From Cyclobacteriaceae bacterium (GTDB lineage Bacteria > Bacteroidota > Bacteroidia > Cytophagales > Cyclobacteriaceae), in NCBI GenBank assembly GCA_012033595.1, contig JAAUQL010000043.1, positions 1 to 44,138 on the forward strand: a stretch of DNA of 44,138 bases. The letters run 5' to 3'. Made by a program: the position numbers and the translations under genes. A model generated the notes under the pieces. The model had not been told where the DNA came from, did no database searches, and saw only the letters and a list, made by a program, of their open reading frames with translations. Positions 313 through 41,869 of the stretch are shown here, piece by piece. The number at the start of each line of letters is the position of its first letter. Position 1 is the stretch's first letter.

Positions 313-3300
313 ATGAGAAACAAGTTACCCATCAGACTCTTGGGGGTACTTCTGTGTGCAGTATGGTTTGCAACTGCCGCAAAGACCCAGGATTTAGTAT
401 CAATGAGTAGGAATTACAGCAATTCCGAAAATCAACCTAGTACCACGCTGCAAACAAAGTCTGAAATTTTCAGTCAAGAACAATTACTGGCAAGGTCACG
501 GGTGCCGAAAATGACGAAGGCCTTCCGGGTGTAAATGTGATCGTAAAAGGAACCACTACAGGGGGAATCACGGGACTGGACGGAGGATATTCGGTTACCA
601 TTCCAGATGACGATGCAGTTCTGATTTTTAGTTCGGTAGGCTACGAAACCATCGAAGTTCCCGTGGGCAACCAGTCTGTTATCGACATTTCATTGGTCCC
701 TGACATCACCTCATTGGAGGAGATAGTAGTAATTGGCTATGGCACGTCCAAGAAAAAAGACCTGACTGGGTCTATTGTCAATGTAAAGGCAGAGGAAGTT
801 TCTAAATATAAACCTACCAGTGTTTCTGAAATACTTAGAACTACAGCGCCAGGCTTGCAAGTTGGCTATGCGACCAACGCGCGAAACGTCCCGGACTTTG
901 AAGTAAGAGGGGATGCTTCGATAAAGGCTAACGACAATGATGAACGGAATGCTAACAAACCATTGATCGTTGTAGATGGAGTTATTTTTCTGGGCGACCT
1001 GGCAGAAATCAATCCAAATGATATTGAAAGTGTCGATGTACTGAAAGATGCAAGTGCAGCGGCTATTTATGGATCTCAGGCTTCTAATGGGGTGGTGATT
1101 TTTACAACCAAAAAAGGGGAATATGGTAAGCCCAAGATCAATTTCAGTTCCAGGATAGGCCTGATAACAGGCGCCAAGCGTCAAGAGACATTTAAAGGTG
1201 GGGATGAAGTGCTGAACTGGCTCACAGATATGAATGAGTCAATTAACGAATTGCTAGAGGAGCCTTGGACTAAATACCGTGACTATTATAGCATACCGGC
1301 TGAATATCAAGATGATTGGCTTTTGGCCAACGGCATCCCTGGGGAAACTGATCCAGCTGTGATAAATGGAGCCAGGGTCGATAATTTTGGCTTTTGGGAG
1401 ATCGAGAAGGAAAATTTTAATAACGGCACTGTTTATGACTGGCAGGATTTCCTGTTCCATACGGGGGTAAGACAAGATTATGATCTAAGCGTTTCCGGCC
1501 GCAATGAGCGGGTTTCATATTACTATTCACTGGGGTACAGTGATCGGGAATCAGTACAGATTTGGGAATCTTTCAAAACCATTACTTCCAGACTTAATCT
1601 CGATGTATCTATTGCCGAATTTTTGAATGTGGGCGTTAACGCCAGCTTTTCTTACCAGGATGAAGGTAGGCAGCCTGTGGGAAGTGGAGGATATATCACC
1701 GCATCTCCCTACGATCAGCCCTGGCAAAATGGGAAACCAAACACAAGGGAGTTTTTGAACGATCAAAGCGCCGGTTCCAATCGTGGTAATCCTTATCAGG
1801 ATCCTTCATGGAATACCCGTGAGCATGATCGCTATATGATCAACCCAACTTTGTTTACGAAAGTTACTCTTCCATTGGGTTTTAGCTTTAGGATGGACTA
1901 CACACCTCGCCTGGATATAAGGAAAAGATTTGACTTTGATGACAGCGGTAACCCTGGACGAGCTGTAGATCGGGGCCTCAGGCGGCATAACCAATCTGTG
2001 GCATGGCAGTGGAATAATATTTTAAGCTGGGATAAAGAATTTGGTGAGCATCGGTTTTCACTAACAGGCTTGTACAATGCAGAAAGAACCAAAAACTGGG
2101 AAACCTATGTGGTGTCTAGCAACTTTTCGCCAACATCAGAACTAGGGTACAATGGGTTACCATTTGGTTTAAATCCTTCAATTCCTTTTAGGGATGTCGC
2201 TGATGAAAATGACGTTAATCTGGATGAGGTTTATTCAAGAACTGCTTTGATGGGTCGTATCAACTATGCTTTTGGAGACCGCTACAACTTTTCCGCATCC
2301 ATAAGACGTGATGGATTCTCTCGTTTTGGCCAGGACAATACACTGGGTAATTTCCCATCGCTTTCCGGGGCATGGACTATTACCAATGAAGACTTTATGG
2401 TCTCGGCGCCAAAGTTTCTTAACTATCTGAAAATTCGGGCTAGCTGGGGGATCAATGGAAATAGCAGTGGGTTGGAATCATACAATGCCTATGGAAGACT
2501 TAGTAACAATCTGTACCTAAACTATAGTGGAGGCTATATTGCTACTCCTTATGTGGAACTGGTGCGGATTGCCAATCCTAATTTATCCTGGGAACGAAAC
2601 GAAGCTTTCAACATCGGGCTGGATTTTGGCCTTTGGAATGACCGCCTTAGTGGCTCCTTCGATGCCTATACTTCCGAAACCAAAGACTTGTTACTTGATC
2701 AAAAATTACCTGAGGTCACAGGATTTGGCTCAGCTAAAACTAATGTTGGCAATCTGAAAAATAGTGGATTCGACCTTGGCCTGAACAGCATCAACATGAG
2801 CTCTGAAAATTTTGTATGGACCAGCGCCTTTAACATCACTTACGCGGTCAACAAAATCACCACTTTTGGAAATAAGCCCATTCCACTCAAAGATTCTGAA
2901 GGAAATCCGGTGTTGGACGGCAGTGGCAATCCTGTACTTGCAGAACCTGACGATTTGCAAAACGGATGGTTTATCGGGGAAAATAAGGATGTGATTTGGG
3001 ACTACGATGTGAATGGAGTCTACCAAATTGGCGAAGAAGCTGAAGCAGCAAAATTCGGATTGTTTCCTGGTGATTTCAGAATAGTAGACCTGGATGGAGA
3101 TGGTAATATTGATGTCGATGACAAAACCTTCCTGGGCTTGAAGCAAAATCCATGGTACATCACCTTTAGGAACGACTTTGAGTACAAAGGCTTTGATCTG
3201 GGTATCGTATTTCTCGCAAAGCTTGGCTATAAGGGAGGGTCAGATTATCCCTTCAACAACCGCCAGGAATATATCAAAAACCATAACTGGTATAACCTTC

Positions 3301-3584
3301 CTTATTGGACACCACAAAACAAGTCTAATGACGCAGCCAGGATAAATTCGATCCGCTTAGGTGGACAGCAAATTTGGGTTTCAAAGTCATATCTCCGTTT
3401 GCAAAATGTTTCTTTGGGTTATAGCCTCCCTGAAAACATATTGGAAAAGATCAAACTGGACAGGTTGCGGCTTTCGGTAAATGTGGAAAATGCAGGTGTT
3501 TGGACTAAGTGGATATTGGGCGACCCGGAATCGGAAAGGGAAATGCCCAGAACTTATTCCTTCAGCATAGACTTCACTTTTTAA
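313..3584 (+). CDS. SusC/RagA-family TonB-dependent outer-membrane receptor (one frameshift)
   Basis: Outer-membrane beta-barrel that imports oligosaccharides or similar ligands using TonB energy, with the SusD-like lipoprotein encoded next to it as lid. The N-terminus has a signal peptide (MRNKLPIRLLGVLLCAVWFA). It is followed by a carboxypeptidase-regulatory-like beta-sandwich (ITGKVTGAENDEGLPGVNV, then the SVGYETIEVPVG region), a plug domain with the hallmark VDGVIFLGDLAEINPND and DVLKDASAAAIYGS, and a long barrel ending in the aromatic YSFSIDFTF. The reading frame breaks between 465 and 482. Adding one A next to 479-480 joins SQE to TITGKVTG and yields about 1,090 residues, normal for the family. 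Only about 35 residues separate the signal peptide from the beta-sandwich, so there is no STN anti-sigma-interacting domain. Without repair, translation would have to begin at GTG 537 and the product would lack a signal peptide. The family call is certain; the substrate is unknown. Confidence 0.93.
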
Positions 3585-3637
3585 GTAATTTTCTGATTTG
3601 GATTTGAAACATTGTAACACTGAAAAAAAAATCGAAT

Positions 3638-5674
3638 ATGAAAAGTATAAAAATATTGAGAGGGACTATCATAGTGCTGTTCCTTCTGTTTTCGTTTTCT
3701 TGTAATGATGAATTTCTAACTGAAGAACCTTTGTCATTCTTAAGCCCTGGCAAAACCTTCGTCGATGCAGCTGGCTTGCAAACCGCCTTAGAAACCTCGA
3801 TAAAAGGTGTCTTCGACCAATGGAATGGAGATACCAGGGAGCTTATGTTCAACCATAACATGAGCGATGCCTCAGTGGTGAGCGCAACTGATAAGCCTGA
3901 TGCTTTTGTGGATCTACGCACCTACGCTACCCCGGTAAACGACAGGAACAACGATGCCGGAAGGACACTGTCTTTTTACGCAGACAATTACAGATATATT
4001 AAAGCAGCAAATACGGTTATAGATTATATTGATAATCCCGTGTGGCCAGAGGGAGCCAACGACCCCGAGAGGAATCATCTGTTAGGAACTGCCTATTTCA
4101 TGAGGGCTTTTTATTATATGCAATTGACCATGCAATTTGGAAATGTGGCCTTTCCACTCAATGTGGTTACGGAAGCGAGAAGAGATTACAAGGCTTTTCA
4201 TATGCAGGGTATTTGGGATCAGATGATTAGCGACCTTGAATATGCGGTGCAACATGTGAAGCCCAAAAACCAGTTGCCTCTTGGTCAGCCGCCCAAAGAT
4301 GCCGTGAGGATTCTTTTGGCAAAGTATTACATGATGAACTTGCGGTTTTCGGATGCTGAAAAATTAATGGATGATGTGATTAGCGATGGACAATCGAGAT
4401 TGTTTACAGATGCCGATATCCCTTCCGGAGTAGATTCTGTTGAAGTCGCCAATACGCTTAGCCCTTTTACCGGCGAGAGATATCCCGGAAGAAGCGGATA
4501 TGCCTCGGCGGATGCAGTCAATTACCTCCATATGGACAGAGGTGCCCAAAAAACCAGCAATCCCGAAGCGATATGGCTTGTGGTCAATGAGCCATTTGTA
4601 CTTGGAACTCAAGGCCGTGCAGCGAGGATACGATCCTGGGGACCCAATTTTGTGAGTACGAATAAGGGTGTGCAGGCTCCGCCAAACGGATCTCTAATTG
4701 GCACAAATGTGCAGCAAGGTACCGGAGAAAAAGGTGGAAAGATGATGCAAAAATGGGGCAGAGGCCAAGGATTTGCCCGACCAACCAACTATTCACAATT
4801 CGATATATGGAATTACGGGGGAATGGTCGATGAGCAGGATTACAGGCACAAAGACCTCAATTGGTTTGAAATGGAAGATGTATTGTACGACAATCCTGCA
4901 CTTTTGAAAAATGAAGCCACTGCTCCTTTTTATCTGCAGCCACTGCGATTGTACCACAACGGAAAGCTGCTCTGCGAAGACACCATCAGATGTTGGTTTG
5001 GTTATCCCAGGTATAAATTTTATGCACTCAACCAGGAAGACAACGTGCAAAGGCAGGACGGTGGGAAAATGGATATGTACATTATGAGGATGGCTGAAGT
5101 GTATCTCTTGAGGGCCGAGGCCAGAGTCTGGCAAGACAACTATGCAGGTGCTGCCGCTGATCTCAATACTATCAGAGAACGTGCAAATGCCATTACTATG
5201 TATTCAGCGGGAGATATACAAAATATGGGTATCGGGGCTGTATTGGATGAGCGATGCAGGGAATTATATGGTGAAGAATATCGCCATGACGAGTTGGTCC
5301 GTTTATCCGTGGTATTTGCTAAATCTGAAAAGATAGCATACAATGGCAAGACCTACAACATAACAGGAAATGATATTGAAAAATCTCTTTCGTCTGGTAG
5401 TTTCTATTATGATAGAATGATGGAAAAAAACAGCTTTTTCAGAGATGAGGTACCTTGGGCCACTTATACCACTACCAGATATACCATAGATCCCATGCAT
5501 ATATTCTGGCCTGTTTATCAAAACTATATCGTGGGCAATGTGGAGAATGTCTTGAATCAAACCACAGGATACAATGGCGCAGAAAACAATGTTGAACCGC
5601 TGACACATCAGGTGCAAGCCGCAGGCATACCCAATATCGATCCGATGGAAGCTATTGGCGCCAGAGACGAATAA
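3638..5674 (+). CDS. SusD/RagB-family nutrient-binding outer-membrane lipoprotein
   Basis: Surface-exposed ligand-binding lipoprotein that caps the SusC-like barrel encoded 53 bp upstream. The signal peptide ends in a lipobox-like FSFSC at about residue 22, followed by NDEFLTEEPLSFLSPG, the usual SusD N-terminus (aspartate- and proline-rich, then a helical TPR core). The C-terminal RagB/SusD region includes MRMAEVYLLRAEARVW, LNTIRERANA and LDERCRELYGEEYRHDELVR, which are the conserved helices of the family. At 678 residues it is at the long end for SusD proteins. It is very likely co-transcribed with the susC-like gene and ends 10 bp before a strong terminator. No glycoside hydrolase lies in the same unit, so the cargo cannot be deduced from neighbours. 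Confidence 0.95.
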   Translation: MKSIKILRGTIIVLFLLFSFSCNDEFLTEEPLSFLSPGKTFVDAAGLQTALETSIKGVFDQWNGDTRELMFNHNMSDASVVSATDKPDAFVDLRTYATPVNDRNNDAGRTLSFYADNYRYIKAANTVIDYIDNPVWPEGANDPERNHLLGTAYFMRAFYYMQLTMQFGNVAFPLNVVTEARRDYKAFHMQGIWDQMISDLEYAVQHVKPKNQLPLGQPPKDAVRILLAKYYMMNLRFSDAEKLMDDVISDGQSRLFTDADIPSGVDSVEVANTLSPFTGERYPGRSGYASADAVNYLHMDRGAQKTSNPEAIWLVVNEPFVLGTQGRAARIRSWGPNFVSTNKGVQAPPNGSLIGTNVQQGTGEKGGKMMQKWGRGQGFARPTNYSQFDIWNYGGMVDEQDYRHKDLNWFEMEDVLYDNPALLKNEATAPFYLQPLRLYHNGKLLCEDTIRCWFGYPRYKFYALNQEDNVQRQDGGKMDMYIMRMAEVYLLRAEARVWQDNYAGAAADLNTIRERANAITMYSAGDIQNMGIGAVLDERCRELYGEEYRHDELVRLSVVFAKSEKIAYNGKTYNITGNDIEKSLSSGSFYYDRMMEKNSFFRDEVPWATYTTTRYTIDPMHIFWPVYQNYIVGNVENVLNQTTGYNGAENNVEPLTHQVQAAGIPNIDPMEAIGARDE

Positions 5675-5683
5675 TACTAAAAG

Positions 5684-5721
5684 AAACCACCTGCAGGCCA
5701 TAATGGCCGGGGTGGTTTTTT
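5684..5721 (+). terminator. Rho-independent terminator of the susCD unit
   Basis: Arms AAACCACC (5684-5691) and GGTGGTTT (5711-5718) pair perfectly. An inner GGCC/GGCC stem sits in the loop, and the second arm runs straight into a T-tract. It lies 10 bp after the SusD stop codon and separates this unit from the oxidoreductase gene. Confidence 0.85.
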
Positions 5722-5875
5722 AATTGAATTCGTAACTAAGAAGAGATGTAAAATGCCATCAAAAGAATGCATAGTCCCTGAACACAACATGACAATAGTT
5801 GCTCATTTTTACTGTTTTATATATTATTACAGCTCTTATAGAACACCATAATTTTTAACCCAAAAAATAAACAGT

Positions 5876-7213
5876 ATGGAAGAATCAAGAAGATCTTTTA
5901 TAAAGAAAACAGCGGTAGCCGGTTCGGCGGCTATATTCGCACCTACCATTATCTCGGCAAGTGCCTTTGGTGCCAATGACCGCATCAAGGCTGCGGTACT
6001 CGGTGTCAATGGCCGGGGCAAAAACCATATCAGCAGCTTAATGAATCAGGATAATGTACAGGTGGTTACTCTGTGCGATCCGGATATGAATATTTTGAAA
6101 GAGCGACAGAAAACGTTCAAAGAAAAGTACAACAAGGAAGTTGCACTGGAGCAAGACCTGCGTCGTGTGATGGACGACAAAGACATCGATGTGATCAGTA
6201 TTGCCGCGCCCAATCACTGGCATGCTTTGGCTACCATTTGGGCCTGCCAGGCTGGCAAAGATGTGTATGTGGAAAAACCAGGATCGCATAATATTTGGGA
6301 AGGCCGAAAAATGGTAGAAGCTGCCCAAAAGTACGACCGAATAGTGCAACATGGCGTACAGCTAAGAAGCTCTCCGGCCATAAATGAAGCGATCAATTTA
6401 ATGCGCGATGGTTATATTGGCAAAGTGTATATGGCACGCGGACTGGTCTTCCGATGGAGGGCCGATATTGGCGATAAGGGCTTCGAACCTGTACCAGAAG
6501 GCTTAGATTATGATCTGTGGACCGGACCGGCTCCTAAGAGGCCATTTACCCGTAATCTGGTTCACTACAACTGGCATTGGAATTGGGACTACGGTAATGG
6601 CGATGTGGGAAATCAGGGCATTCACGAAACGGATCTTTGTATGTGGGGGTTGGATGTGGGGCTACCTACTAAAATCACGGCTATGGGAGGTAAATTCCTC
6701 TGGAACGATAGCAAAGAAACACCAGAAGTATTATCATCAGTATATAAATATCCTGACGAAGGTAAAATTATTCAATTTGAGGTGCGTCCATGGTGCACCA
6801 ATACCGAAGATGGAGCCACTGTTGGCAATATTTTTTATGGCGACAAGGGTATTCTGGTAGTAGAAGGTTACGACAAATACAAAACCTATCTGGGTCAAGA
6901 CAGGACGCCAGGTCAATCTGGAAGCGACGGAGCCACATCCGGCAGTGAAATGGATCGGGGTGATGGCGGTACCGACGGACACTTCAAAAACTTTATCTCG
7001 GCAGTAAGGGCACATGACAAAACCATATTGACAGGACCGGTAGAAACCGCGCACCTTTCATCTGGCCTGGCGCATTTGGGCAATATCGCTTACAGGCTCG
7101 ACAGGGTGTTGACTTTCAATCCACAATCGGAAACCTTCGTTAACGATCCGGAGGCTGACCAAATGCTAACAAGAAATTATCGCAAGGGATTTGAAGTACC
7201 GGAAAACGTGTAA
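5876..7213 (+). CDS. Tat-exported Gfo/Idh/MocA-family oxidoreductase
   Basis: NAD(P)-dependent sugar or cyclitol dehydrogenase family protein, predicted to act outside the cytoplasm. Residues 5-30 form a twin-arginine signal (RRSFIKKTAVAGSAAIFAPT). The Rossmann fold follows (IKAAVLGVNGRGKNH, a GxNGRG variant of the nucleotide-binding loop), then the family motif VYVEKPGSHNIWEG carrying the conserved EKP lysine. The C-terminal substrate domain includes HYNWHWNWDYGNGDVGNQG and IHETDLCMWGLDVG. The length of 445 residues is typical of Bacteroidota members with Tat signals. It sits 200 bp downstream of the susCD terminator and may process the imported sugar, but this is only inferred from proximity. 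The exact substrate and whether the cofactor is bound during Tat export are unknown. Confidence 0.9.
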   Translation: MEESRRSFIKKTAVAGSAAIFAPTIISASAFGANDRIKAAVLGVNGRGKNHISSLMNQDNVQVVTLCDPDMNILKERQKTFKEKYNKEVALEQDLRRVMDDKDIDVISIAAPNHWHALATIWACQAGKDVYVEKPGSHNIWEGRKMVEAAQKYDRIVQHGVQLRSSPAINEAINLMRDGYIGKVYMARGLVFRWRADIGDKGFEPVPEGLDYDLWTGPAPKRPFTRNLVHYNWHWNWDYGNGDVGNQGIHETDLCMWGLDVGLPTKITAMGGKFLWNDSKETPEVLSSVYKYPDEGKIIQFEVRPWCTNTEDGATVGNIFYGDKGILVVEGYDKYKTYLGQDRTPGQSGSDGATSGSEMDRGDGGTDGHFKNFISAVRAHDKTILTGPVETAHLSSGLAHLGNIAYRLDRVLTFNPQSETFVNDPEADQMLTRNYRKGFEVPENV

Positions 7214-7538
7214 ACAGCTATTCGGCTAAAGCCCGTATATTCAAAAAAGCCAATGACTCACATACCGGTCATTGGCTTTTATGTTTGCAGGCAGCAAATC
7301 AATTTTAGATCGAGTCGGGGCTGACCGAAAAGGCCACTACGCATACAATTTTTCCCGGCTGGCGATCTGCAAATAATGAATGATGTACGCAAGGAGTGAT
7401 CGCGGCGCAACTTGTAAAAAATTTAGCAGTCATCATATCGTCAGTATGGGCTGATTGCCTGAGGGAAAACCATCTTTTTAAAAGAATGGTCCACGCAAAG
7501 ACAAAACAAAAAGATGAAAATGTGGTAGATTAGCATGG
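7214..7538. other. Intergenic region before the arsenosugar-type cluster
   Basis: Apart from the terminator at 7244-7280 I find no established gene here. On the minus strand an ATG at 7436 opens a 43-codon frame ending at 7305. It contains several Cys and His residues but resembles nothing I recognise, and a frame of this size is expected by chance. Confidence 0.4.
7244..7280 (+). terminator. Rho-independent terminator after the Gfo/Idh/MocA gene
   Basis: Arms AAAAGCCAATGAC and GTCATTGGCTTTT pair over 13 bases around a short loop near 7258-7266. The A-tract on the left and T-tract on the right could make it work in both directions. It starts about 30 bp after the stop codon at 7213. Confidence 0.85.
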
Positions 7539-8213: not shown

Positions 8214-8231
8214 CCGACGTTTTACCCAGCT

Positions 8232-8244: not shown

Positions 8245-8277
8245 TTTACATTTTCAATTTTTAAAAAAAAGCAACGA

Positions 8278-8655: not shown

Positions 8656-8656
8656 T

Positions 8657-16609: not shown

Positions 16610-19221
16610 ATGAACTTTAATAATTATACCATAAAAAGTCAGGAGGCCATCCAAAAAGCAATAGAAATTGCGAATGGTCACCAACAACTCTCCATTGAGA
16701 CGGCACACCTGATGAAAGCGCTGCTGTTGTCCGATGAGAATGTGATTTCCTTCATGCTCAAAAAGCTTGCGATCAACAGATTGCAGCTTGACGAAAAGCT
16801 GGACGAAATCATAGGTACCTATCCCAAAAGTTCCGGACAACAGCCCTATCTTTCCAACGATACCAATGCGGTGTTGCAAAAGGCAACCTCCTTTCTCAAA
16901 GAGTTTGGCGACGAATACATTGCTATTGAGCATCTGGTGTTGGCGCTGATCGCCGGATCGGACAAGACGGCCAGCCTGCTGAAAAGCCTGGGTTTCAACA
17001 AAAAGGACCTTACGGCCATCATTCATGAGTTGCGTGGTGGAGACAAAGTAAGTGACCAAAATGCCGAATCGAAGTACAGGTCGCTGGACAGGTATTCCAA
17101 AAACCTGAACAAAATGGCTGCTGAGGGCAAAATTGACCCTGTCATTGGTCGCGATGAGGAAATAAGGCGGGTACTGCAAATACTCAGCCGGCGCACCAAA
17201 AACAACCCCATATTGCTAGGAGAGCCGGGAGTAGGTAAAACGGCCATAGTGGAAGGAATGGCGCAGCGGATCATAGATGGCGATGTGCCGGAAAACCTGA
17301 AAAGCAAGACCATCATTTCCCTCGACATGGGATTGCTGATCGCCGGCGCCAAGTACAAGGGAGAATTTGAAGAAAGGCTCAAAGCGGTAATCAAAGAGGT
17401 GACCGATTCCAACGGGGAGATTATACTATTTATAGATGAAATCCATACCCTTATTGGTGCCGGCGCAGGTGGTGAGAGTGCCATGGATGCTGCCAATCTT
17501 TTGAAACCGGCCCTTTCGCGGGGTGAATTGCATGCCATCGGCGCTACCACGTTGCAGGAATACCAAAAGTATATTGAAAAAGATAAAGCGCTCGAAAGGC
17601 GTTTTCAGGGTGTCATGGTCGATGAACCTTCGATTCCCGATGCCATTTCGATACTTCGTGGTATCAAAGACAAGTATGAGCTGCACCATGGTGTGCGCAT
17701 AAAAGACGATGCCGTCATTGCGGCGGTAGAGCTCTCGAGCCGATATATTTCTGATCGCTATCTGCCGGATAAGGCGATAGACTTGATGGATGAAGCTGCT
17801 TCGAAATTGCGCATAGAGATAGATTCGCTTCCCGAAGAGCTGGACGAACTACAACGCAAGATTATGCAGCTGGAAATAGAACGTGAGGCCATCAGACGCG
17901 AAAAGAATAAGGAGAAGGAAAATTTCTTGTCCAAGACCATCGCCGAGTTGTCTGATAAGCGAAATGAGTTGAAAGCCCAGTGGGAAAATGAGAAGAACAT
18001 GATCCAGGGCATTCAGCACGAGAAGGAAAATATCGACAGGCTCAAGCTGGAAGCAGAGCGTGCCGAACGCGCTGGCGACTTTGGCAAGGTGGCTGAGATC
18101 AGATATGGCCTCATTCTCGAAAGCCAAAAAAAGCTGGAAACCCTCCAACAACAAATAAAGGAAATGCAAAACTCGGACACCCTGCTCAAAGAAGAAGTGG
18201 AAAGCGAAGACATTGCAGAAGTGGTGGCCAAATGGACAGGCATACCGGTTTCGAAGATGATTCAAACAGAAAAGGACAAGTTGATGCACCTGGAGGATGA
18301 ACTTGCCAAACGGGTTGCCGGACAGCAGGAAGCCATAGAAGCCGTGGCCGATGCGGTACGTCGCAGCCGCGCGGGCTTACAGGATCCTAAGCGTCCGATC
18401 GGTTCATTTATTTTCTTTGGAACTACCGGAGTAGGCAAAACGGAATTGGCAAAAAGTCTGGCAGAATTCCTGTTCGACGACGAAAATAACATGGTGCGGA
18501 TCGATATGTCGGAGTTTCAGGAGCGGCATGCCGTGTCCCGGTTGATCGGCGCCCCTCCGGGCTATGTGGGCTACGACGAAGGAGGACAACTTACTGAGGC
18601 CGTTCGCAGAAAACCGTATTCGGTGATCCTGCTCGACGAAATAGAAAAGGCACATCCGGATGTGTTCAATATTTTGTTGCAAGTACTGGATGATGGCCGA
18701 CTCACGGACAACAAAGGACGCGTAGCCAATTTCAAAAACTCCATCATCATAATGACTACCAATATCGGCTCGCATTTGATTCAGGAGCGTTTTGCCGAAA
18801 TGAATGAGTACAACCAGGCAGAAGTGATAGAAAACACCAGAAAGCAGGTTTTTGACTTATTGAAAAGATCTGTTCGCCCAGAGTTTCTCAATCGTGTCGA
18901 TGAGATTATTATGTTCCAGCCACTGACCGAAAAGGATATCAGAAAGGTGGTGGAAATCCAGTTCCACATCATCCAGAAAAGGCTGGAAGAAAACCATATT
19001 AAGCTGGAGGCCGACGACAAAGTGCTCGACTATCTGGGCGAAATAGGCTTTGATCCTCAATTTGGAGCCCGGCCTCTGAAAAGGGTGATGCAAAAGCATA
19101 TCCTTAATGAGCTCTCCAAAAAATCCTGGAGGGCATGATTTCACCAGACTCCATCGTCGGCCTGACCCTCAGTGAAAACAGGGAAATTGAGTTCATCAAT
19201 CTCGATGAGGTAAAAATTTAA
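16610..19221 (+). CDS. clpB: ATP-dependent disaggregase ClpB (C-terminal frameshift)
   Basis: Hexameric AAA+ chaperone that extracts polypeptides from aggregates together with DnaK. Domains in order: Clp N-terminal repeat domain (1-145), first AAA+ module with Walker A GEPGVGKT (204-211), the long middle-domain coiled coil around 410-530 (the M-domain that distinguishes ClpB from ClpA), and the second AAA+ module with Walker A GTTGVGKT (604-611) and sensor/C-domain FDPQFGARPLKRVMQKHI. The frame stops at 19138 after KKSWRA. Adding one A to the six-A run at 19118-19123 instead continues KKILEGMISPDSIVGLTLSE to the TAA at 19219-19221. This restores about 870 residues, the normal family length. 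The missing tail is part of the hexamer-forming C-domain, so the uncorrected protein would probably assemble poorly. Confidence 0.95.
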
Positions 19222-19336: not shown

Positions 19337-20447
19337 ATGCAGATCAGGGTCGGGGTTTTTACTCTTTTTTTTTATTTGTTCACAGGGTTGCTCACAGTGC
19401 CATTATCAGCACAAAGTGACAGCACCAGCAGCCACATGCTAAAGTTTTCTATCTATCCTGTACTGGGTTATCAGCCCGAAACCAGCATGATGTTTGGTGC
19501 GATCGGCTTTATAGTCTTTAGCAAATCGGGCAGCGAGCAAAGCGATCATTTTCGCCCTTCTAATATTTCCCCTTATTTTTTATACACCCTCAACAATCAG
19601 ATGCTCTTCGCCATAGATGTGGAGCTGTATCTCAATAATGACTACAACCTTCAGTTCAAACCCCGGCTATACAATTACCCCGACTTCTTCTTTGGGATCG
19701 GCAATGGCAATGAACCGGAAGATGAAGAAATATATACCAATGTCTTCCAGCAGGTGGAAGGTACGTTTATGAAATTCACAGACGAAGAATGGTCGCTGGG
19801 AATCCGTTTCGATATCCAGCACAATACCTTGAGGGATTTCAGCGAAAACGGACAATTGATCAGCAGCGGGCTCCCCGGTCTGCGCGGAGGATTTAATGTA
19901 GGTATAGGGCCGGCAGCACAGTACGACAGCAGAGACAATATTTTGTACCCGGGCAAAGGAGCATATCTCCGCTCAGAGGTCAATTTTTATTCAGATGCCC
20001 TGGGAGGTGATTTTAACTATACGCTGTTTAAGATCGATCTCAGGAAATATTTCTCTATTAAGAATAGCAAAATATACTGGCATTCCAGGGGGTGGGCAAT
20101 TTTATCAGCGGGGCGGAAGTGCCTTTTTACAAATTGCAAAAATCGGTGGCGATATCAGGCTCCGGGGAATTGCCAATGAAAACCTGTACATGGACAAACA
20201 GTCATTTTGGATGCAGGCAGAATTTCGCCGCGATTTGTTTTGGCGATTTGGTGGCGTTGCCTTCGCGGGAATTGGAGATGTAGCACCCGAAATCGACCAG
20301 TTCGTTTTCGATGAAATGAAGTATGTAGTTGGCCTGGGGGGAAGATTCCAGGCATTGAAAGATGAAAAACTCAATGCCCGCCTCGACGTAGGTTTTGGCC
20401 GGGGAGGCCAACATGCAGTGTATTTATCAATCAAGGAGGCATTTTGA
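19337..20447 (+). CDS. Omp85/BamA-like surface-antigen barrel without POTRA domains (two frameshifts)
   Basis: Outer-membrane 16-stranded barrel related to the D15 surface-antigen domain. The signal peptide is about residues 1-25 (ending LSAQSD). Barrel-like segments follow, including GFNVGIGPAAQYDSRDNILY and PGKGAYLRSEVNFYSDALGG. The diagnostic strand is split between frames. At about 20077 the frame changes (one base lost near the C of TACTGG), giving LAFQGVGNFISGAEVPFYKL. At the five-A run 20138-20142 it changes again, giving IGGDIRLRGIANENLYMDKQ, the family's GG..RLRGY-like loop that enters the barrel. With both bases restored the protein has about 370 residues and ends in the aromatic AVYLSIKEAF. 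POTRA repeats are absent, so it is not BamA itself; a phospholipase-linked or small translocon role is possible. The function is unassigned. Confidence 0.8.
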
Positions 20448-21214: not shown

Positions 21215-21870
21215 CTATTCTATGGACTGCACCACCTCTTTTTTATCGATGACTATACTCCACATGCCCCGAAGGTCGCCCAAGCTGTAGCCCGTCGCTT
21301 CGTCATCAGGGTATTTAGTTTTAATAAATTCAAGGGTTTCTTCCTTCAATCCATTGTGCAGGGTGCCGTGGCAGGTGAGGCACAGGGCATTGTCAATAAG
21401 AATTGGTTTGGTAAACAAATATCTGTGTTCATCCAGAGCTTGCACATTGGCCTTTAGTGCTATGGAATCTTTCCATTGATAGGAATAAGCTTCCAATAAT
21501 TGACTTTCGATATCATTTGGCCTGTCCGCAGGATTTCGTGCTTTTGTGCTCACCCGGCTTATGTTCGCGTGGTATTTATGGCTCAGCGAATCCACCAGGG
21601 GCATAGCTTGCAGGTTGCAAAAGGCGATGGCATGCTCTACTCCGCCCCGGGCGATGGCATTTTGTAAGTTTTTGCCCAAGGTACTTTTAGCGGACATCGC
21701 TATTTCCTCGCCTATTGCATATACTTTGTCGATGATTTCGGCTTCACTTACCTTCTTGATTTCCCTATTTTCAATTTCTTCACGTACAGCGTCACTATCT
21801 ACTTTTTTTCAGATGTACATGCCCACGGTAAGAGCAGAGCGGCAAATATAGCGAGGTAAGGCCTGTTCAT
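21215..21870 (-). CDS. Tll0287-like (DUF3365) c-type haem lipoprotein (one frameshift)
   Basis: Predicted periplasm-facing haem protein. The start at ATG 21870 gives a lipoprotein signal, MNRPYLAIFAALLLPWACTS, with the lipid cysteine in WAC. The frame then stops after SEKK. One extra A in the seven-base run 21803-21809 (read as T on the plus strand) continues into VDSDAVREEIENREIKKVSE and the conserved domain. The domain contains KNLQNAIARGGVEHAIAFCN, PADRPNDIESQLLEAYSYQW and the haem-attachment motif CLTCH in LCLTCHGTLH. The corrected length is 218 residues. The gene begins 5 bp after the stop of the HAMP/GAF/PAS sensor, so the two are one operon. In other proteins this domain forms the sensing part of kinases and chemoreceptors; here it is a separate lipoprotein. 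A redox or gas-sensing partner role is inferred. Confidence 0.82.
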
Positions 21871-21875: not shown

Positions 21876-23794
21876 TCAACTCAGTTTGCTGATATTTTTG
21901 CCATAGAGCACATACATCAGGTCGTTGTTAATGGAGTCTTGAATTTGACCTGCCGAGGCGAGCAATTCTATTTGGTTTCCACTCCTGTCTTTCATCATAA
22001 GCACGCCATTCCAAAAGGTATCGGTGGTGGCCTGTTCTTTGATTTCGCTCAAGTCGGCACTCGACACCATCAGGTCTTTAAACAATTTGCCTTCGAGTTC
22101 GCTTGGAGAATACTTAAATACTGTTTTGCAAACGTCATTGGCCGTACGCACCACAAAGTTCTTGTTGAGTTCAAACAATACGGTATCGCTCAAAACGATA
22201 CGTTCACGCGATTCGCGATCTAGCTGGTCACGTTGTATTTTTTCCTGAGTGGCTTGGAGTTCTTCCATGTTTTGCCTCATTTCCTCTTCCTGGGCACGCA
22301 TCTGCTCGGTCATCATGGTCGATTCTTCCAGCAATTTAGAGGTGCGTTCATTTACTTTTACAGAAGAGATGGTCGAAGCGATGTTTTCTGCAATGCGCTC
22401 CACAAATTCTATTTCGTACTCATCGTATTCTTTGAATGAGGCCATTTCTATTACCCCATGAATTTCATCGTTAAGTTTCAGTGGTACAATGAGCACGCTT
22501 CGAGGATTTGCCTGACCAAGACCGGAAGTGATGGATACATAGTCATTTGGCACTTCGGTGAGGTAGATTACATCACCTTCTATCCATGCCTGACCCGACA
22601 GGCCTTCTCCTTTGTAAATTTTCTTTTCTAGAAATTTCTTCTTGTCCCAGGCATAGCACGCTGCCAATTCCATGTACTCTCCATCTGCAGCGGCATTGTT
22701 GGCTTCGATAATAAACAATGCACCCTGGTTGGCGCCGATGTATTTTACCAGGTTGGAAATGATCTCATCGGCAAGTTTCTCAAAGTTGTCGTTGTAGCTG
22801 CGCAGTATGTCTCCAAACTTGGCCAATCCGCTTGTAGCCCAGTTTCGTTTTTTATCTTCTTCGGCAACTTTTTTCAGGTTGGAGCGCATTTCAAGTAGCG
22901 CATTGCCAAGCATGTCGCTCTCGCTTAAAGGCTTAAATTCACTATCATACTTACCATCGCCGATATTTTCGGCAAATACCGTGATTTTACCAAAGCCCTC
23001 AGCCATAGAAGATAGCGAGTTGGCCATATCACCAATTTCATCATTGGATACCTGGCTTTTGTCAATTTTTACCAGATCGCCCTGTCCCAGCCTGTCGATC
23101 ACTGCCCTGAGGTAATTGATGGGCTTGGTGATGGTTGAAGAAATAGAAAATGCGAGGATAATGCCAACGATGAGCAAAATGACACCCAGTATAGAGGTGG
23201 TATTGATCAATTGCTTGAAGTTGGCCATGAGCCCGGCGTCGGTTTCGGCTTTTTGCGTGTTGAGATAATCGTTGATGGTTTCCAGATAGACAATGAGGTC
23301 GGCAGACCGGGGCAACACTTCACTTTCAATGGCCTCTTCGGCCATAAATTTCTTTATGGGGTCTTCATAGTCTTCGAAAGCATCCAGTTCGGTCATAATT
23401 CCCTGTTCGATTTCGAGCAATTCTTCAAACAAAATAAAGGCGGAATCCGGCTTCAACACCCCTTCGCCATAGCTTATGTCTGATGAATATTGCAGGATTC
23501 GATTTTTTACCTCCAGGTATTCATGGTCATGAATGGCCCTCAAAGCTGCCTTGTCGTCTTCGTTGGTCTGAAGATATACCCAGTTGGTGATGAGCATTTT
23601 GGATCGGGTTACCAAAAAATGAAATCATTTACAGCTTCGGTGATCGGATTGATCACTTCCTGAGATTGCTTGATAATGGCATTTCCCTTGTAAATGGTAA
23701 AAACACTATAGGCAGCATTGGCACTGAAAATGATGATCAAAGCTAAAAACCCCCAGATTATTTTTCGCCTGATAGTAAATCGTATTCCCTTCAT
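21876..23794 (-). CDS. Membrane sensor: HAMP, GAF, coiled coil, PAS; no output domain (one frameshift)
   Basis: Integral inner-membrane sensory protein of about 639 residues once a base is restored. The first membrane helix is at residues 11-32 (KIIWGFLALIIIFSANAAYS). A helical periplasmic domain of about 165 residues follows, then a second helix near 200-220 (LGVILLIVGIILAFSISSTI). Next come one or two HAMP units (ITKPINYLRAVIDRLGQGDL), a GAF domain (GEGLSGQAWIEGDVIYLTEV, SVLIVPLKLNDEIHGVIEMA), a short coiled coil (MRAQEEEMRQNMEELQATQE) and a C-terminal PAS domain. There is no histidine-kinase, cyclase, phosphatase or methyl-accepting module, so the signal must leave through a partner. The frame breaks at the six-base run 23614-23619; one more base changes the premature FIFW stop into FIFLVTRSKMLITNWVYLQT. 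It is co-transcribed with the haem lipoprotein gene downstream. Confidence 0.85.
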
Positions 23795-33436: not shown

Positions 33437-34251
33437 ATGACATCACATCATCCAGGTTTCTTTATAAAAATTTGCAAATGGGCTCTTTTAGTAATTATGC
33501 CTGTTTTTTTTGCCTTTGACAGCAAAGTCGCTCCATATCGTATCGTACATCAACAGTCGGTAAAGCAAGGGGAACAAATAGAATACCGGGTACACTATGG
33601 TTTTATCAATGCAGGAGAGGCGATTTTAAAAACCGATAAAAAACTACATCGCAAAAATAAAAGACCCTGCTACAAAATAGATATTTATGGCAAAACCACC
33701 GGTCTTTTCGATATGGTCACCACCGTGCGCGACAATTGGGGTACCTATCTGGACACTGCTGCATTTGTTCCCCACATGTTTTATCAGAGCATCAAAGAGG
33801 GCAACTATATGAAAAAGGAGGTCATTGAATTTGACCAGATCAATCATGTAGCAATGGTAAACAGAATCAACAAAAAGGATAGCACACTCATCAAAAAGGA
33901 CCGATTCAATATTCCGGCCAACGTACAGGATATCGTTAGTGGCTATTATTACATGCGCACATTTGACTACGACACTATGAAAAACAATCAAATATTCACA
34001 ATTAGTGGCTTTTTTGATGATACCACTTATCATGTGAAAGTAAAATTTTTGGGGAGGGAAAAGCTCAAAACCAAAGTGGGCACCTATAAAACCTTTATCA
34101 TTTCGCCTATCATGCCCAAAACTCGTTTTTCAGAGGTTCCGATCCGATTAAGGCGTGGATTTCCGATGACAAAAGACGAATACCCCTTAAGGTAAAAGCG
34201 GAACTTTTGATCGGTTCATTGGAAATAGATATAAAGTCCTATTCTGATTAA
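33437..34251 (+). CDS. DUF3108 secreted protein (one frameshift)
   Basis: Exported protein of the DUF3108 family, which has an uncharacterised beta-rich fold. The N-terminus has a membrane or signal segment (WALLVIMPVFFAFDSKVAPY). The family start EQIEYRVHYGFINAGEAIL is clear, followed by KTTGLFDMVTTVRDNWGTYL and YYYMRTFDYDTMKNNQIFTI. The uncorrected frame stops at 34195 after TKDEYPLR. Adding one T in the five-T run 34126-34130 gives FFRGSDPIKAWISDDKRRIP, the strongly conserved C-terminal block of the family, then LKVKAELLIGSLEIDIKSYS to the TAA at 34249-34251. The product has about 271 residues. It lies between the aminopeptidase-like gene and the two-component pair; a role in the envelope is likely, but the function is unknown. 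Confidence 0.85.
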
Positions 34252-34383
34252 TTCAATTATTACTCATAAATTAAGGTATTGTTATGATATTTATGCAAAC
34301 CCTTTTTAATGTTTAGATATAAAACTTAGTTCTTAATTTCGCATGGGTTAAGTATATTAAAACGTACAACACATCATTTTGAA

Positions 34384-35072
34384 ATGAGTAATAATACAAG
34401 CAAAAAAATCTTGGTAGTCGATGACGAGGTGGATATACTCGAATTGCTCAAATACAATCTAAAAAAAGAAGGCTACCTGGTAAAAACGGTGACCAATGGA
34501 ATAGATGCAGTAGAAACCGCCAAGGATTTAGTCCGGACCTGGTGCTGTTGGACATTATGATGCCGCATCAAGACGGCGTAGAAACATGCCGGCAGATACG
34601 TGAATTGCCTCAGATGGAAAATGCGTTTATCATCTTTCTCACGGCCAGATCCGAAGAGTATTCAGAAGTGGCCGCCTTTGATATCGGAGCAGATGACTAC
34701 ATCACCAAGCCGATAAAACCCCGCGCACTCATGAGCAGGATTGGCGCCATGTTTAGAAGGGGCGAAGTAAAAAATAGTGATAACAATATGATTGCAATGG
34801 GCGATCTTACCATAGATAAGACCAGTTACACCATATTGGTAAAAGACAAAAAAATCACCCTTCCAAAAAAAGAATTTCAACTTCTATACTTTTTGGCTCA
34901 AAATCCTGACAAGGTGTTTAGCCGCGACGACCTCCTGCAAAATATCTGGGGCACCGATGTATATGTACTCGCACGCACGGTAGATGTTCATATAAGAAAA
35001 GTCAGGGAAAAAATCGGAGAAGGATTTATCAGAACAGTAAAAGGTGTAGGCTATAAATTTGAAATGAATTAA
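34384..35072 (+). CDS. OmpR/PhoB-type response regulator (one frameshift)
   Basis: Two-component transcription factor with an N-terminal receiver and a C-terminal winged helix. The ATG at 34384 opens KKILVVDDEVDILELLKYNL, which contains the acidic pair Asp13 and Asp14. The frame then runs into a stop at about 34558. One T added to the TTT at 34527-34529 restores AKDFSPDLVLLDIMMPHQDG, with Asp57 as the phosphorylation site. The receiver ends in GADDYITKPIKPRALMSRIG, carrying the conserved lysine. The DNA-binding domain has TLPKKEFQLLYFLAQNPDKV and ARTVDVHIRKVREKIGEGFI. The product has 229 residues. The histidine kinase gene begins 8 bp later. PhoB/PhoP-like control of phosphate or envelope genes is possible, but no target is visible. 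Confidence 0.92.
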
Positions 35073-35080
35073 ATTGCCGC

Positions 35081-36141
35081 ATGCTTTCAAGTTCGAGAAG
35101 TGTGGCGCTGCTCATAGCCGCATCGGTTTCTATCATCACTACTTCTTTTTTGTCCCTGGTCAATGGCGTGCCCATTGGCGGGCTTGTGGTGGTACTTGTA
35201 CTGGCATTTTCATCCACCTATATTCTTACCTACTTCACGGTCGATGTATTTATTTTTGGCCAGATAGAAAAAATCAATGAGCGGCTCACCAAGCTCAAAG
35301 GAAAGGACTTTTCCTTTATCGAAGATGGCAACAAGCAGATAAAGGTAAACCCGCTCATTAGAATAAATCAGGAAATACTTACCTATGCCGAGGCCAAACA
35401 AAGCGAAATAGATCAACTCAAAAAAGCCGAAAGCTTTCGACGCGAGTTTATTGCAGATGTCTCTCATGAATTGAAAACACCAATATTTGCTGCCCAGGGA
35501 TTTGTGCATACCCTCCTCGATGGGGCGGTAAAAGATAAAAATGTGAGGAACAAGTTTTTGAAAAAAGCAGCCAAAAGCCTCGATGGCCTCGACAGGCTCG
35601 TTCAGGATCTGCTTACCATTCGCAGGTTGAAACCGGCGTGATAAAAATGGAGATGGAAAACTTCAACATCAATGTGCTTATTCAGGAAGTATTTGATCAA
35701 TTTGACAGCAAAGCAGAAAAGAAGGATATTGAGCTGAAATTTGCAGATGATTGCCCGGCCGATTTATATGTCTATGCCGATCGGCACAAGATTTTTCAGG
35801 TTGTGCTCAACCTGGTGTCTAACTCCATCAAATATCGTAAAGATATCCATACCTTTATCATAGCCAATCTGGTAGAAGAAGAAAAGAATGTGGAAATCAC
35901 TATCAGAGACAATGGCATCGGAATACCCGAAGAGCATATCCACAGGATTTTTGAGCGATTTTACAGAATCGATAAAAGCAGATCCCGCGAAAAGGGGGGT
36001 ACCGGTCTGGGCTTGTCCATTGTTAAACACATTCTTGAGGCGCACCATAGCCACATCACCGTCAAGAGCAAACTGCATGAAGGGGCCCAGTTTAAATTTA
36101 AATTGAAAAAAGGCCAGGCCTACAACTGGGTCAAGGACTGA
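35081..36141 (+). CDS. PhoR-like sensor histidine kinase (one frameshift)
   Basis: Membrane kinase for the response regulator encoded immediately upstream. Two hydrophobic helices lie at about residues 8-24 and 32-56, with almost no periplasmic loop. A HAMP-like linker (INERLTKLKGKDFSFI) follows, then the phosphorylated His129 in EFIADVSHELKTPIFAAQGF. The first frame ends TIRRLKPA at 35641. Adding one T to the pair 35619-35620 gives DLLTISQVETGVIKMEMENF and joins it to the ATPase domain. That domain contains VVLNLVSNSIKYR (N box), RDNGIGIPEEHIHRIFERFY (G1 and F boxes) and GGTGLGLSIVKHILEAHH (G2). The corrected length is 353 residues. The short input region suggests membrane or partner-protein sensing, as in PhoR-type enzymes. 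Confidence 0.92.
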
Positions 36142-36167
36142 TCAGTTGGTTCTGCAGCAATCATTTT

Positions 36168-36187
36168 TTTTTGCAGCAATGCAAAAA
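36168..36187. other. Hairpin with GCAA tetraloop after the kinase gene
   Basis: TTTTTGCA-GCAA-TGCAAAAA is a perfect 8-base stem with a GNRA-type loop, 26 bp past the kinase stop. No T-tract follows on the plus strand, so simple intrinsic termination is unlikely. It may stabilise the mRNA end. Confidence 0.35.
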
Positions 36188-36423
36188 GACGGAGACTGTT
36201 AAAAGCAGTTTGAAAACCCATACTTTACGGCAAATCTATAAACGCAGCCGGCAAAGGGCATAGCCACCAAGCAAATACTAAAAATGAAATACCAGTGGAC
36301 TCAGTCCTTAGACCATAGTACCTTAACCCATAGGCATGGCTTGCTTCACGCCAAACAGGCAGATACAGCATGCACCAGGCTGCTTCTTTGTAACCTTTGC
36401 CGGCATACGTCGTATTGGTGTTT

Positions 36424-37314: not shown

Positions 37315-37368
37315 AAGTAGAAGATATCAGCTAATGATATCCCCCCCGGAATTTAAAGTGATTGGCAG

Positions 37369-37394
37369 ACAAAAAGCCCGCGTTGCTTTTTTTT
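37369..37394 (+). terminator. Weak hairpin terminator before the ABC exporter
   Basis: Arms AAAAAGC (37371-37377) and GCTTTTT (37385-37391) with a 7-base loop, ending in a longer T-tract. The stem is short and AT-rich, so termination may be partial. Confidence 0.45.
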
Positions 37395-37411
37395 AAAACT
37401 GTTTATTTTTG
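37383..37411 (+). promoter_or_regulatory. Candidate promoter for the ABC exporter operon
   Basis: TATTTTTG at 37404-37411 matches TAnnTTTG. TTG at 37383-37385 is 18 bases upstream, close to the expected -33 spacing. It overlaps the weak terminator's right arm. Transcription would start near 37418, upstream of both possible TTG start codons (37433 and 37457). Confidence 0.5.
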
Positions 37412-37456
37412 ATTATTTAGCATAAATTTTTTTTGCCATCTCCAAACCCACTTATT

Positions 37457-38371: not shown

Positions 38372-39662
38372 GATAGCACTGATCATCAAACGCGAATATC
38401 TAAGCCGGGTCACCAAAAAATCTTTCATTATCATGAGCCTGGTAGGCCCCATGCTTTTTGGGATGATCTTCGTAGTGCAATTTTGGCTGGTATCGCACGA
38501 AGGGGAGCAAAAGGTGATAGAGATAATAGATGAAAGTGGCTATTTCCATGGCAACATGGAAGGTACGGGCACCATTTCTTTTATTTACCCGGACGATAAC
38601 CTGACCCGAGCCAAAGAAGAATTGAAAGCCAATGATTCCTATGGCCTGCTTTATATTCCCGATATAGACCTCAACAACCCACAGGGGATCACCTTCTTTG
38701 CTGAGAAAAACCCAAGCATTGAGGTGCAATCGTCGCTTGAGTGGTTTATTAAAAATAGAATTGAAGAAATAAGGCTGGGCAATTTCGGTATTGACAAGCA
38801 GCAATTAGATGAAATAAAAACCAATATAAACCTCAACGTAATCAATATTACCGATGCAGGCGAAAAAGAGGGCGATGTCACCATTTCCCTCATTGTGGGC
38901 TACATTGCTGCGTTTCTGATATATCTCTTTATCTTTTTGTATGGTTTACAAACATTGCGCGGGGTAATAGAAGAAAAGACCAGCAAGATTGTTGAGATCA
39001 TCATTTCTTCGGTAAGGCCTTTTCAGCTCATGATGGGCAAAATCATAGGAATAGGAGCCGTTGGGCTTACGCAATTCGTCATCTGGGCTATTCTCACCAT
39101 TGTCATTTGGCAGGGAGCGCTGACCTTTTATCAGGTGGATATTGCTGAAACAAAAAAGATGGAATTGGTAGAAGGTATGCAGACAAGCCTAGGTGAAAGC
39201 CGGGAGATGCCTGAATTTTTAGAAAAAATCAATACCATCAATTTCCCATTGCTTATCGGGGCTTTTCTTTTTTATTTTATTGGCGGATTTTTGTTTTATG
39301 GCGCCTTGTTTGCTGCTGTTGGATCGGCTGTTGACAATGATTCCGATGCGCAGCAATTCCAGTTACCCATTACGCTGCCACTCATTTTGTCCATTATGTT
39401 GCTTTCGGCCATCATCCGCGATCCGCATGGAAGTCTGGCATTTTGGTCGTCTATTGTGCCATTCACATCGCCAGTTGTGATGATGATGCGCATACCCTTC
39501 GACCCTCCTTTATGGCATATTGGCTTATCGATGGTATGTATGATAGCCGGATTCATTTTCACCACCTGGCTGGCTGGTCGAATATACCGAATAGGTATAT
39601 TGATGCATGGTGCCAAAGTGAACTATAAGGTTCTTGCCCGGTGGTTTATGATGAAAAACTGA
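38364..39662 (+). CDS. ABC-2 type permease (NatB-like)
   Basis: Membrane subunit of the exporter, 432 residues. The GTG start at 38364 lies inside the ATPase gene. The N-terminus has the NatB-like IALIIKREYLSRVTKKSFII, a first membrane helix (residues 22-43), then a large extracytoplasmic domain of about 140 residues. Five further helices cluster in the second half, for example GYIAAFLIYLFIFLYGLQTL and LLIGAFLFYFIGGFLFYGAL. The conserved cytoplasmic segment GVIEEKTSKIVEIIISSVRP and the loop FAAVGSAVDNDSDAQQFQLP are diagnostic of this ABC-2 subfamily. Together with the upstream ATPase it forms a complete half-transporter pair that would dimerise. Confidence 0.92.
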   Translation: MNKIALIIKREYLSRVTKKSFIIMSLVGPMLFGMIFVVQFWLVSHEGEQKVIEIIDESGYFHGNMEGTGTISFIYPDDNLTRAKEELKANDSYGLLYIPDIDLNNPQGITFFAEKNPSIEVQSSLEWFIKNRIEEIRLGNFGIDKQQLDEIKTNINLNVINITDAGEKEGDVTISLIVGYIAAFLIYLFIFLYGLQTLRGVIEEKTSKIVEIIISSVRPFQLMMGKIIGIGAVGLTQFVIWAILTIVIWQGALTFYQVDIAETKKMELVEGMQTSLGESREMPEFLEKINTINFPLLIGAFLFYFIGGFLFYGALFAAVGSAVDNDSDAQQFQLPITLPLILSIMLLSAIIRDPHGSLAFWSSIVPFTSPVVMMMRIPFDPPLWHIGLSMVCMIAGFIFTTWLAGRIYRIGILMHGAKVNYKVLARWFMMKN

Positions 39663-39709
39663 GTGAGGAGCAGCAAATCCGGTAAGAGATTAGATTGGAG
39701 TATATAAAA

Positions 39710-39728
39710 CAGTGCCCGGTTGGCACTG
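39710..39728. other. Hairpin CAGTGCC/GGCACTG after the permease gene
   Basis: Perfect 7-base arms and a 5-base loop (CGGTT), 48 bp beyond the permease stop. There is no T-tract, so it is a weak candidate for termination or mRNA 3'-end protection. Confidence 0.35.
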
Positions 39729-39884
39729 CTTACAGCATAGTGAACTTGCTTCGCGGTGAAGTTTCCGCCTGATCAAGGACAAAAGAAAACGCGTTGAAAC
39801 AACCAAATCGTATGGTCGCACCACAGGTATGCGGTCGGCTTGTAGTTAAATGCTAAGTGCGCTAAAATCTACTAATTGAAGCTT

Positions 39885-41869
39885 ATGGACAATCGGATTC
39901 ACAAAATGGCTAAAAGTATGCGGTCAGCTATCTTTGCCTTCGCTATGTTTTTTACTGGCATCCCTTTCACACATGCCCAGCTCAGGTTGCCTCAGGTTTT
40001 TTCAGACCACATGGTCTTGCAACGCGACATTCCAATAAAAATATGGGGTTGGGCCGACAAAAAGGATAAATTAACCATTGTCTTTCAGGGCGATACCGTT
40101 TATACCACCGCAGATAAGAAGGGCAATTGGCAGGTAGCGTTGCCATCCTACCCGGCTGGTGGACCCTTTGAATTGGCGATATTTGGCAAGCAATCCCTCA
40201 CATTTTCCAACGTACTGCTGGGCGATGTCTGGATATGCTCCGGGCAGTCTAATATGGAATGGCCCCTAAAAGCCAGCAACAACGCCGCCGAAGAAATTGG
40301 GAGCGCAACTTACCCCAGGATCAGGTTGTTGACGGTCGACAAAAATACCAGTGCCACGCCACGTTCAGATATGGCTTCTTCTGGTTGGACAGTATGTAGC
40401 CCGCACACCATATCCGATTTTTCGGCTGTGGCATATTTTTTGGCAGAAAAATATATGAAGATATTGATGTGCCCATAGGATTGATCAATGCCTCATGGGG
40501 AGGCACCAATGTAGAAACCTGGATCAGCGCCCGGGCGATAGAGCAGGTGGAAGGTTTTGAAGGCCTGGAAGAAGAGCTCGCAGCATTTGATGAAACCGTG
40601 TTGGCCAGCGAGCAACGGGCCAGGTTGGAGGCTATTACCGGGCCACTATCAGATATAGATGAAGGAATGGATGGTGCAAAGTATCTATGGTCTGACCCTG
40701 ATACAAACTATACCGCTTGGAAAGAAATGGATATTCCGCAGCTTTGGGAATCTGCAGGCCTGGCCGGATTGGATGGGGTGGTGTGGTTTGCGCACGAATT
40801 TCAACTCGATCCTCAGGACGTACTCAATGATTTGGAGATTCACCTGGGGCAAATAGATGACAATGATATCGCATGGATCAATGGTTTTAAAATTGGGGAG
40901 ACCCAGGGGTACAATCTTCATCGTGCATATCATGTGGCGAAAGATCAGCTAAAGACAGGAAGAAATATAGTGGTGGTACGGGTAGAAGATACCGGTGGGG
41001 GCGGTGGAATATACGGTGAAGCTGCTGATATGTACGTAAAGCTCAGCGAAAAGAAAATTGCCCTGTCGGGGAGTTGGAGGTTTCGTATTGGTAAGGGGGA
41101 TTTCAGTTCCACTGTAGGCCCCAACAGCATGCCATCTTTGTTGTACAATGCCATGATTCACCCACTCATACCTTACGGAATCAAAGGCGCTATCTGGTAC
41201 CAGGGCGAGTCTAACACCAGCCGGGCATACCAATATCGCACCACCTTTCCGCTACTGATCAATAATTGGAGGGAGGATTGGGGGCTCGGGGCATTTCCGT
41301 TTTTCTTTGTGCAGTTGGCTAATTTTATGGCACCTTCAGTGCAGCCGGAGCAAAGTGCCTGGGCAGAATTGCGCGAAGCACAGTCTCTGACCTTGTCGTT
41401 GCCCAATACCGGCATGGCCACTGCCATCGATATTGGCGAAGCCAACGATATCCATCCCCGAAACAAGCAGGAGGTAGGACGTCGCTTGGCGCTAAATGCC
41501 ATTAGGGTGGCTTATCATCAAGATGTCGTTGCTTCCGGACCTAGTTACAATGCGATGCAAATAGAAGGTAACAGAGCTATGATCAGTTTCGACCATATTG
41601 GTTCAGGACTATATCTCAAAGATAAATATGGTTATGTTAATGGATTTGCCATTGCCGGCAGGGACAAAGTGTTTCGCTGGGCAAGGGCGCAGATAATGGG
41701 CGATCAGGTAATGGTATGGTCGGATATGGTGGCTGAGCCTGTCGCCGTTCGCTATGCCTGGGGCAACAATCCCGATGATGTGAACCTGTACAATCTGGAA
41801 GGGTTGCCTGCCGTGCCTTTTCGTACCGACAATTGGCCGGGCATTACCGTGAATGAGCGCTACCGGTAA
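39885..41869 (+). CDS. Sialate O-acetylesterase, SGNH-type (one frameshift)
   Basis: Secreted carbohydrate esterase that removes O-acetyl groups from sialic acid or related sugars. The start is ATG 39885 or 39906; the latter gives a tidy signal peptide (MAKSMRSAIFAFAMFFTGIP, cleaved near THA-Q). The N-terminal beta domain begins LRLPQVFSDHMVLQRDIPIK. The nucleophile serine is in GDVWICSGQSNMEWPL, the block III-like residues are in GAIWYQGESNTSRAYQYR, and the catalytic histidine is in DIGEANDIHPRNKQEVGRRL. A jelly-roll insert lies between (WFAHEFQLDPQDVLNDLEIH). The frame breaks at the five-A run 40447-40451; adding one A gives AEKIYEDIDVPIGLINASWG, which joins the two parts. The corrected product has about 655-660 residues. 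It is monocistronic; other sialic-acid genes are absent. Confidence 0.92.

Follow-up and report, generated by a model that had tools for sequence, protein, structure and literature searches.

The window is a stretch of 44,138 nucleotides (positions 1 to 44,138 of contig JAAUQL010000043.1) from a Cyclobacteriaceae bacterium (assembly GCA_012033595.1), and it contains nine genes whose reading frames are broken at ten places. It belongs to a draft genome of 5.75 Mb in 234 contigs, rated 97.24% complete and 2.58% contaminated, with a G+C content of approximately 44%. The RecA encoded in the window was 88–90% identical to the best four Cytophagales-type records (Cyclobacteriaceae, Ekhidna, Marinoscillum, and Flammeovirgaceae), and the window was therefore placed among the Cytophagales. 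Most of its genes could be named by Pfam, and their order was partly kept in relatives of the same genus. In the following, G000 denotes this draft, G001–G006 six congeners, L a locus, and C a contig.

Reading frames were called with a frame-aware protein-to-DNA aligner, using for each window gene at most eight best-scoring references after removal of duplicates. Alignment to intact relatives revealed ten breaks, all of them one base short (−1) and none with an extra base (+1); this single direction in 10 of 10 cases had a two-sided p of 0.002. The genes and their breaks are as follows.

313..3584, + strand: SusC-like TonB-dependent receptor (Pfam Plug, CarbopepD_reg_2); −1 in the N-terminal part near 464–479, the rest conserved
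16610..19220, + strand: clpB; −1 near 19117–19125, approximately 30 residues ahead of the end
19337..20447, + strand: Omp85-like outer-membrane protein (Pfam Omp85); two −1 breaks, near 20067–20077 and 20138–20144
21215..21870, − strand: lipoprotein ("haem" only in the first-pass annotation); −1 near 21803–21809, close to the N-terminus
21876..23794, − strand: HAMP-GAF-PAS sensor protein (Pfam); −1 near 23614–23624
33437..34248, + strand: DUF3108 protein (Pfam); −1 near 34117–34130
34384..35072, + strand: response regulator with a DNA-binding domain (Pfam); −1 near 34524–34533
35081..36141, + strand: histidine kinase (Pfam); −1 near 35619–35632, between the HisKA and HATPase pieces
39876..41869, + strand: SASA-family (sialate O-acetylesterase-like) protein (Pfam SASA); −1 near 40429–40451

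The first-pass annotation of the window had described ten single-base-short breaks in nine genes with no base in excess, and frame-aware alignment recovered all of them. Placements differed by approximately 20 bases or less, which is inside the alignment ambiguity: the susC break fell at approximately 464–470 instead of 479, the first Omp85 break at approximately 20067 instead of 20077, the DUF3108 break at approximately 34119 instead of 34126–34130, and the esterase break at approximately 40429–40438 instead of 40447–40451.

Plain tblastn already placed the conserved halves of clpB, the Omp85-like gene, the sensor, DUF3108, the response regulator, and the kinase in differing frames. With the aligner, the break was called in all aligned references for clpB (4/4 of 21 matching), DUF3108 (5/5 of 30 matching), the response regulator (8/8 of 28 matching), the histidine kinase (8/8 of 26 matching), and the SASA protein (8/8 of 13 matching). 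Identity on the two sides of the break was 91 and 93% for the response regulator and 88 and 86% for the kinase. The clpB frame was 843 residues long, compared with 872–880 in G001–G004, and the SASA frame 489 residues, compared with 661–674 in the G004, G002, G006, G010, G028, and G001 matches; a SASA match in G003 (447 residues, starting at the edge of its locus) showed no break. The sensor was 83% identical to a G001 open reading frame (ORF) on either side of the break, which was called in its single reference. Downstream of its break the lipoprotein shared 57% identity with a G001 ORF; the break was called in one of two references, the other being the adjoining sensor gene. The susC frame had 1039 residues, compared with 1091 in G004, and its break was called in four of eight aligned references (15 matching), including both with at least 73% identity; the remaining four, distant at 44–50% identity, gave no frame change. 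Both Omp85-like breaks were called with the one distinct reference (two matching, which were duplicates). By plain tblastn this gene had shown a net +1 shift; frame-aware alignment resolved it into two −1 breaks 77 bases apart, and a +1 event was rejected.

Frame breaks in indispensable genes and across the draft

The rpoC gene of the draft was split by a −1 break into two frames, and a search of the genome found only these two pieces. In five of the six congeners rpoC lay in one frame, and in G003 it was present as two pieces on two contigs. The rpoC break was known beforehand; three family searches, for class I tRNA synthetases, topoisomerase A subunits, and DNA polymerase III alpha, were chosen blind to the outcome and reached nine of the draft's own genes. 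Gene names other than rpoC are tentative assignments by family and length. Five of the nine were broken: leuS, metG, cysS, topoisomerase IV A, and a second dnaE-like gene. Together they had six −1 breaks, two of them in cysS, and zero internal stops. The other four, valS, ileS, gyrA, and dnaE, had open frames approximately as long as in relatives, as judged by length only. rpoB, aligned along with rpoC, also contained one −1 break and no internal stop; the aligned stretch lacks the first part of the gene, and no search was made for further copies. No other copy of rpoC, leuS, metG, cysS, or topoisomerase IV A was found in the draft. Together with rpoB, these are genes that the cell could not lose. 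Since indispensable genes were broken in mostly the same way, the window breaks are most likely ordinary errors of sequencing or assembly and not biology.

Real gene decay, in which the nine window genes would be recent pseudogenes produced by single-base deletions, is very unlikely. Frameshifts in runs could be a first step of gene erosion, as PMC3017870 describes for endosymbionts, and conservation past the break would be expected if the loss were very recent. Decay would, however, have to include rpoB as well as the sole copies found of rpoC, leuS, metG, and cysS, and it would have to affect a chaperone and both halves of a two-component pair alike. Instead of the mix of nonsense changes, insertions, and deletions, confined to dispensable genes, that decay would be expected to leave, there were few insertions and no convincing nonsense codon; in the screen of the draft, only one internal stop survived filtering, and its reference was an ORF antisense to recA. 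The preference of the first-pass annotation for sequencing error over decay was supported by similar, almost exclusively −1 breaks on unrelated contigs, by the splitting of the only copies found of transcription and translation genes, and by the lack of convincing nonsense codons.

For the genome-wide screen, ORFs of relatives were compared with 69 pieces of the draft, which total 1,030,173 bases including the window; 114,355 of these bases had a partner in a relative: 27,068 of the 44,138 in the window, where further breaks were sought in the genes with a relative, and 87,287 elsewhere. Only the longest non-overlapping ORFs served as references, antisense ORFs having produced many spurious "internal stops"; rows with less than 38% identity or fewer than 15 residues and junctions with gaps of more than 30 were excluded, and in the final screen the references for the named loci excluded G000. 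The screen found 20 break sites in the draft, six in the window and 14 elsewhere on unrelated contigs. The rate in the window was not significantly above that in the rest of the draft (7 of 21 shifts, p = 0.31) or in the other long contigs (nine sites in 74 kb compared, p = 0.15). When the 13 non-window loci besides rpoC were examined by the aligner, 12 showed a single −1, and carB (C190, L170:3515–3590) had two −1 changes and one +1 inside an 80-base span. Sites were denser on short contigs (0.388 per compared kb) than on long ones (0.121; p = 0.044), which weakly supports thin coverage.

No break sites were found in the final screen in G001 (53,982 bases compared with G000 and 41,321 with others), in G002–G006 (65,661 bases), or in 81 further relative loci (133,080 bases). 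An earlier, less filtered control run had given two +1 calls in relatives, in G001 L192 and Flavobacterium L065, both with a G000 ORF as the reference. The former mirrors the −1 break of G000 at L166:3518. The latter, at L065:12633–12667, lies near the gene start; alignment of G000 L179 to the 111-residue ORF of L065 itself gave no break, and the sequence of the Flavobacterium locus may have a real change near the gene start. Without G000 among the references for the named loci, the L065 call could not recur in the final screen. G001 also showed two internal stops at one place (L136:1114–1129), where two of its ORFs overlap. The spectra of ORF length and run length did not clearly separate the draft from its relatives; the ORF N50 was 395 residues in the draft, 430 in G001, 352 in G002–G006, and 359 in the named loci.

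Direction and sequence context of the breaks

Over the whole draft, 33 of the 37 aligned events were −1 and four were +1 (sign test, p = 1e-6; p = 0.028 against an assumed 75% of deletions among real events), and on contigs longer than 4 kb all 30 events were −1. The one-sided spectrum is therefore complete in the window and on contigs longer than 4 kb, but not everywhere in the draft. Run statistics were based on 32 of the 37 events, one of them +1, with C181 excluded and one carB −1 merged with a neighbor less than 40 bases away. A run of at least five identical bases was present within 10 bases of 16 of the 32 sites, compared with a background of 15.8% (p = 7e-6), and a run of at least six was near nine of the 32, compared with 5.3%. 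At the window sites the figure was six of ten, against the same 15.8% of random compared positions, which agrees with the earlier description of these breaks as lying mostly in homopolymer runs. Runs within 10 bases of the 32 sites reached seven bases at most, and no common slippery motif was seen by eye among the printed break contexts.

Phase-variable loci are typically surface or regulatory genes with long simple repeats. If the runs in the draft acted as on-off switches (contingency loci), the surface proteins and sensors among the affected genes, and the six of ten window sites near a run of at least five bases, would fit. With no run longer than seven bases near the 32 sites, half of the sites lacking a run of at least five, and genes of transcription and translation affected too, we consider phase variation vanishingly unlikely. 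The suggestion that the strain might contain many slippery or phase-variable genes was not supported.

The breaks could also be real, with the cell restoring the frame either through slippage of transcription on runs, known from Blochmannia and Buchnera, or through ribosomal frameshifting. The conservation of the genes past the breaks resembles the Blochmannia cases (PMC3017870). The genomes described there are extremely AT-biased and have many tracts of at least nine bases, and in B. vafer eight genes are affected (PMC3017870). In the draft, by comparison, the G+C content was approximately 44%, runs near the sites had at most seven bases, half of the 32 sites were without a run of at least five, and the long A/T tracts of the Blochmannia/Buchnera type were not found. 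The extrapolated number of breaks is several hundred or more, no slippery motif was evidently shared, and the screened genes were in frame in the six congeners and named relatives, with the exception of G002 dnaE. Correction of this type is extremely unlikely. Equally hard to credit is a novel transcriptional or translational recoding that would restore frames genome-wide at hundreds of arbitrary sites while the short forms were real; this, too, we regard as exceedingly improbable.

Foreign-looking contigs

Contig C130 (L167:1208–2214) contained a second recA that differed from the type seen in the genus; its product was 56% identical to the RecA of the window over the matched part; no comparable second copy was found in the six congeners. 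This recA had a −1 break, supported by 85 reference alignments in the screen and by three of three with the aligner, and a split gene near it resembles one for acyl-CoA dehydrogenase. For a second valS on C181 (L312:2625–3955), each of the four references gave three +1 changes and one −1. A tblastn hint had suggested a break there in the same direction as the others, and the aligner overturned it. Contig C159 (L313:3348–4442) contained an extra dnaE-like fragment with no frame change over 377 residues. C130 is probably a contaminating contig, and the same probably applies to C181 and C159. If C130 and C181 are indeed contamination, the data set rather than the organism is the source of the frame errors, although C181 lacks the one-sided pattern. 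The first 20 kb of C193 (C193:1–20000, L251) had a G+C content of 0.32, compared with approximately 0.44 in the draft, and contained a 1710-residue ORF at 2392–7524; a foreign origin was rejected, one protein being 97% identical to that of the congener G003.

Origin of the breaks and comparison with known systems

Consensus errors of an under-corrected draft assembly almost certainly account for the breaks. Reads or their consensus would have dropped single bases, preferentially but not solely in homopolymer runs, and the assembly would have been left uncorrected by accurate reads. The nine window genes are very probably intact in living cells. The comparison shows the breaks themselves, their strong bias toward −1, their spread over the genome, and their occurrence in indispensable genes; that they arose as read or consensus errors is inferred. 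Several observations weigh against this explanation. Of the four +1 events, which depart from the common direction, carB near the end of the 3.8-kb C190 has one and the second valS on the 4.0-kb C181 has three; 16 of the 32 sites had no run of at least five bases within 10 bases, runs of 7–9 bases were not clearly depleted compared with relatives, and 8 of the 13 non-window loci rest on references of only 43–54% identity. The signature was also not unique to this assembly, as the dnaE of the congener G002 carried an aligner-confirmed −1 break (L304:3518). That gene had been picked for its short frame, the other congener genes of the family-search set serving as references only, and the same data problem may affect G002 in milder form.

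The ten-break pattern is not a real biological feature; its biological interest is low, and it is a warning about data quality. Despite its completeness rating of 97.24%, the draft seems to contain approximately one false frame break per 4–8 kb. Extrapolation from the 10 breaks in the 44-kb window, the six in approximately 25 kb of family-search genes, and the nine sites in 74 kb of other long contigs suggests that errors of this kind may number approximately 700 to 1,400 in the whole draft. Gene losses, pseudogenes, and truncated domains reported from this assembly are not credible before correction. Essential single-copy genes provide a fast, read-free test to distinguish assembly error from biology.

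As to the platform, a nanopore-type long-read assembly fits best and is the source toward which we lean, with 454 or Ion Torrent as the alternative. In 454 and Ion Torrent data, indels in runs give false frameshifts, and runs are also over-called. The draft differs from such over-calling in that only four of its 37 events are an extra base.

Slippage in Blochmannia and Buchnera resembles the present case in single frameshifts within otherwise conserved genes, including replication genes (PMC3017870). There, the breaks are few and lie in A/T tracts of very AT-rich genomes (PMC3017870), whereas in this draft runs are short or absent and breaks occur genome-wide.

Uncorrected nanopore-type drafts appear closest. 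The present draft differs from them in that half of the 32 sites are not next to a run of at least five bases, and its platform is presumed. According to PMC9262707, indels in homopolymers persist in uncorrected nanopore consensus and often produce frameshifts, and a draft with large numbers of them can still qualify for the high-quality tier. The features in common are single-base indels that split genes, are enriched near runs, and extend over the whole assembly together with a high completeness score (PMC9262707).

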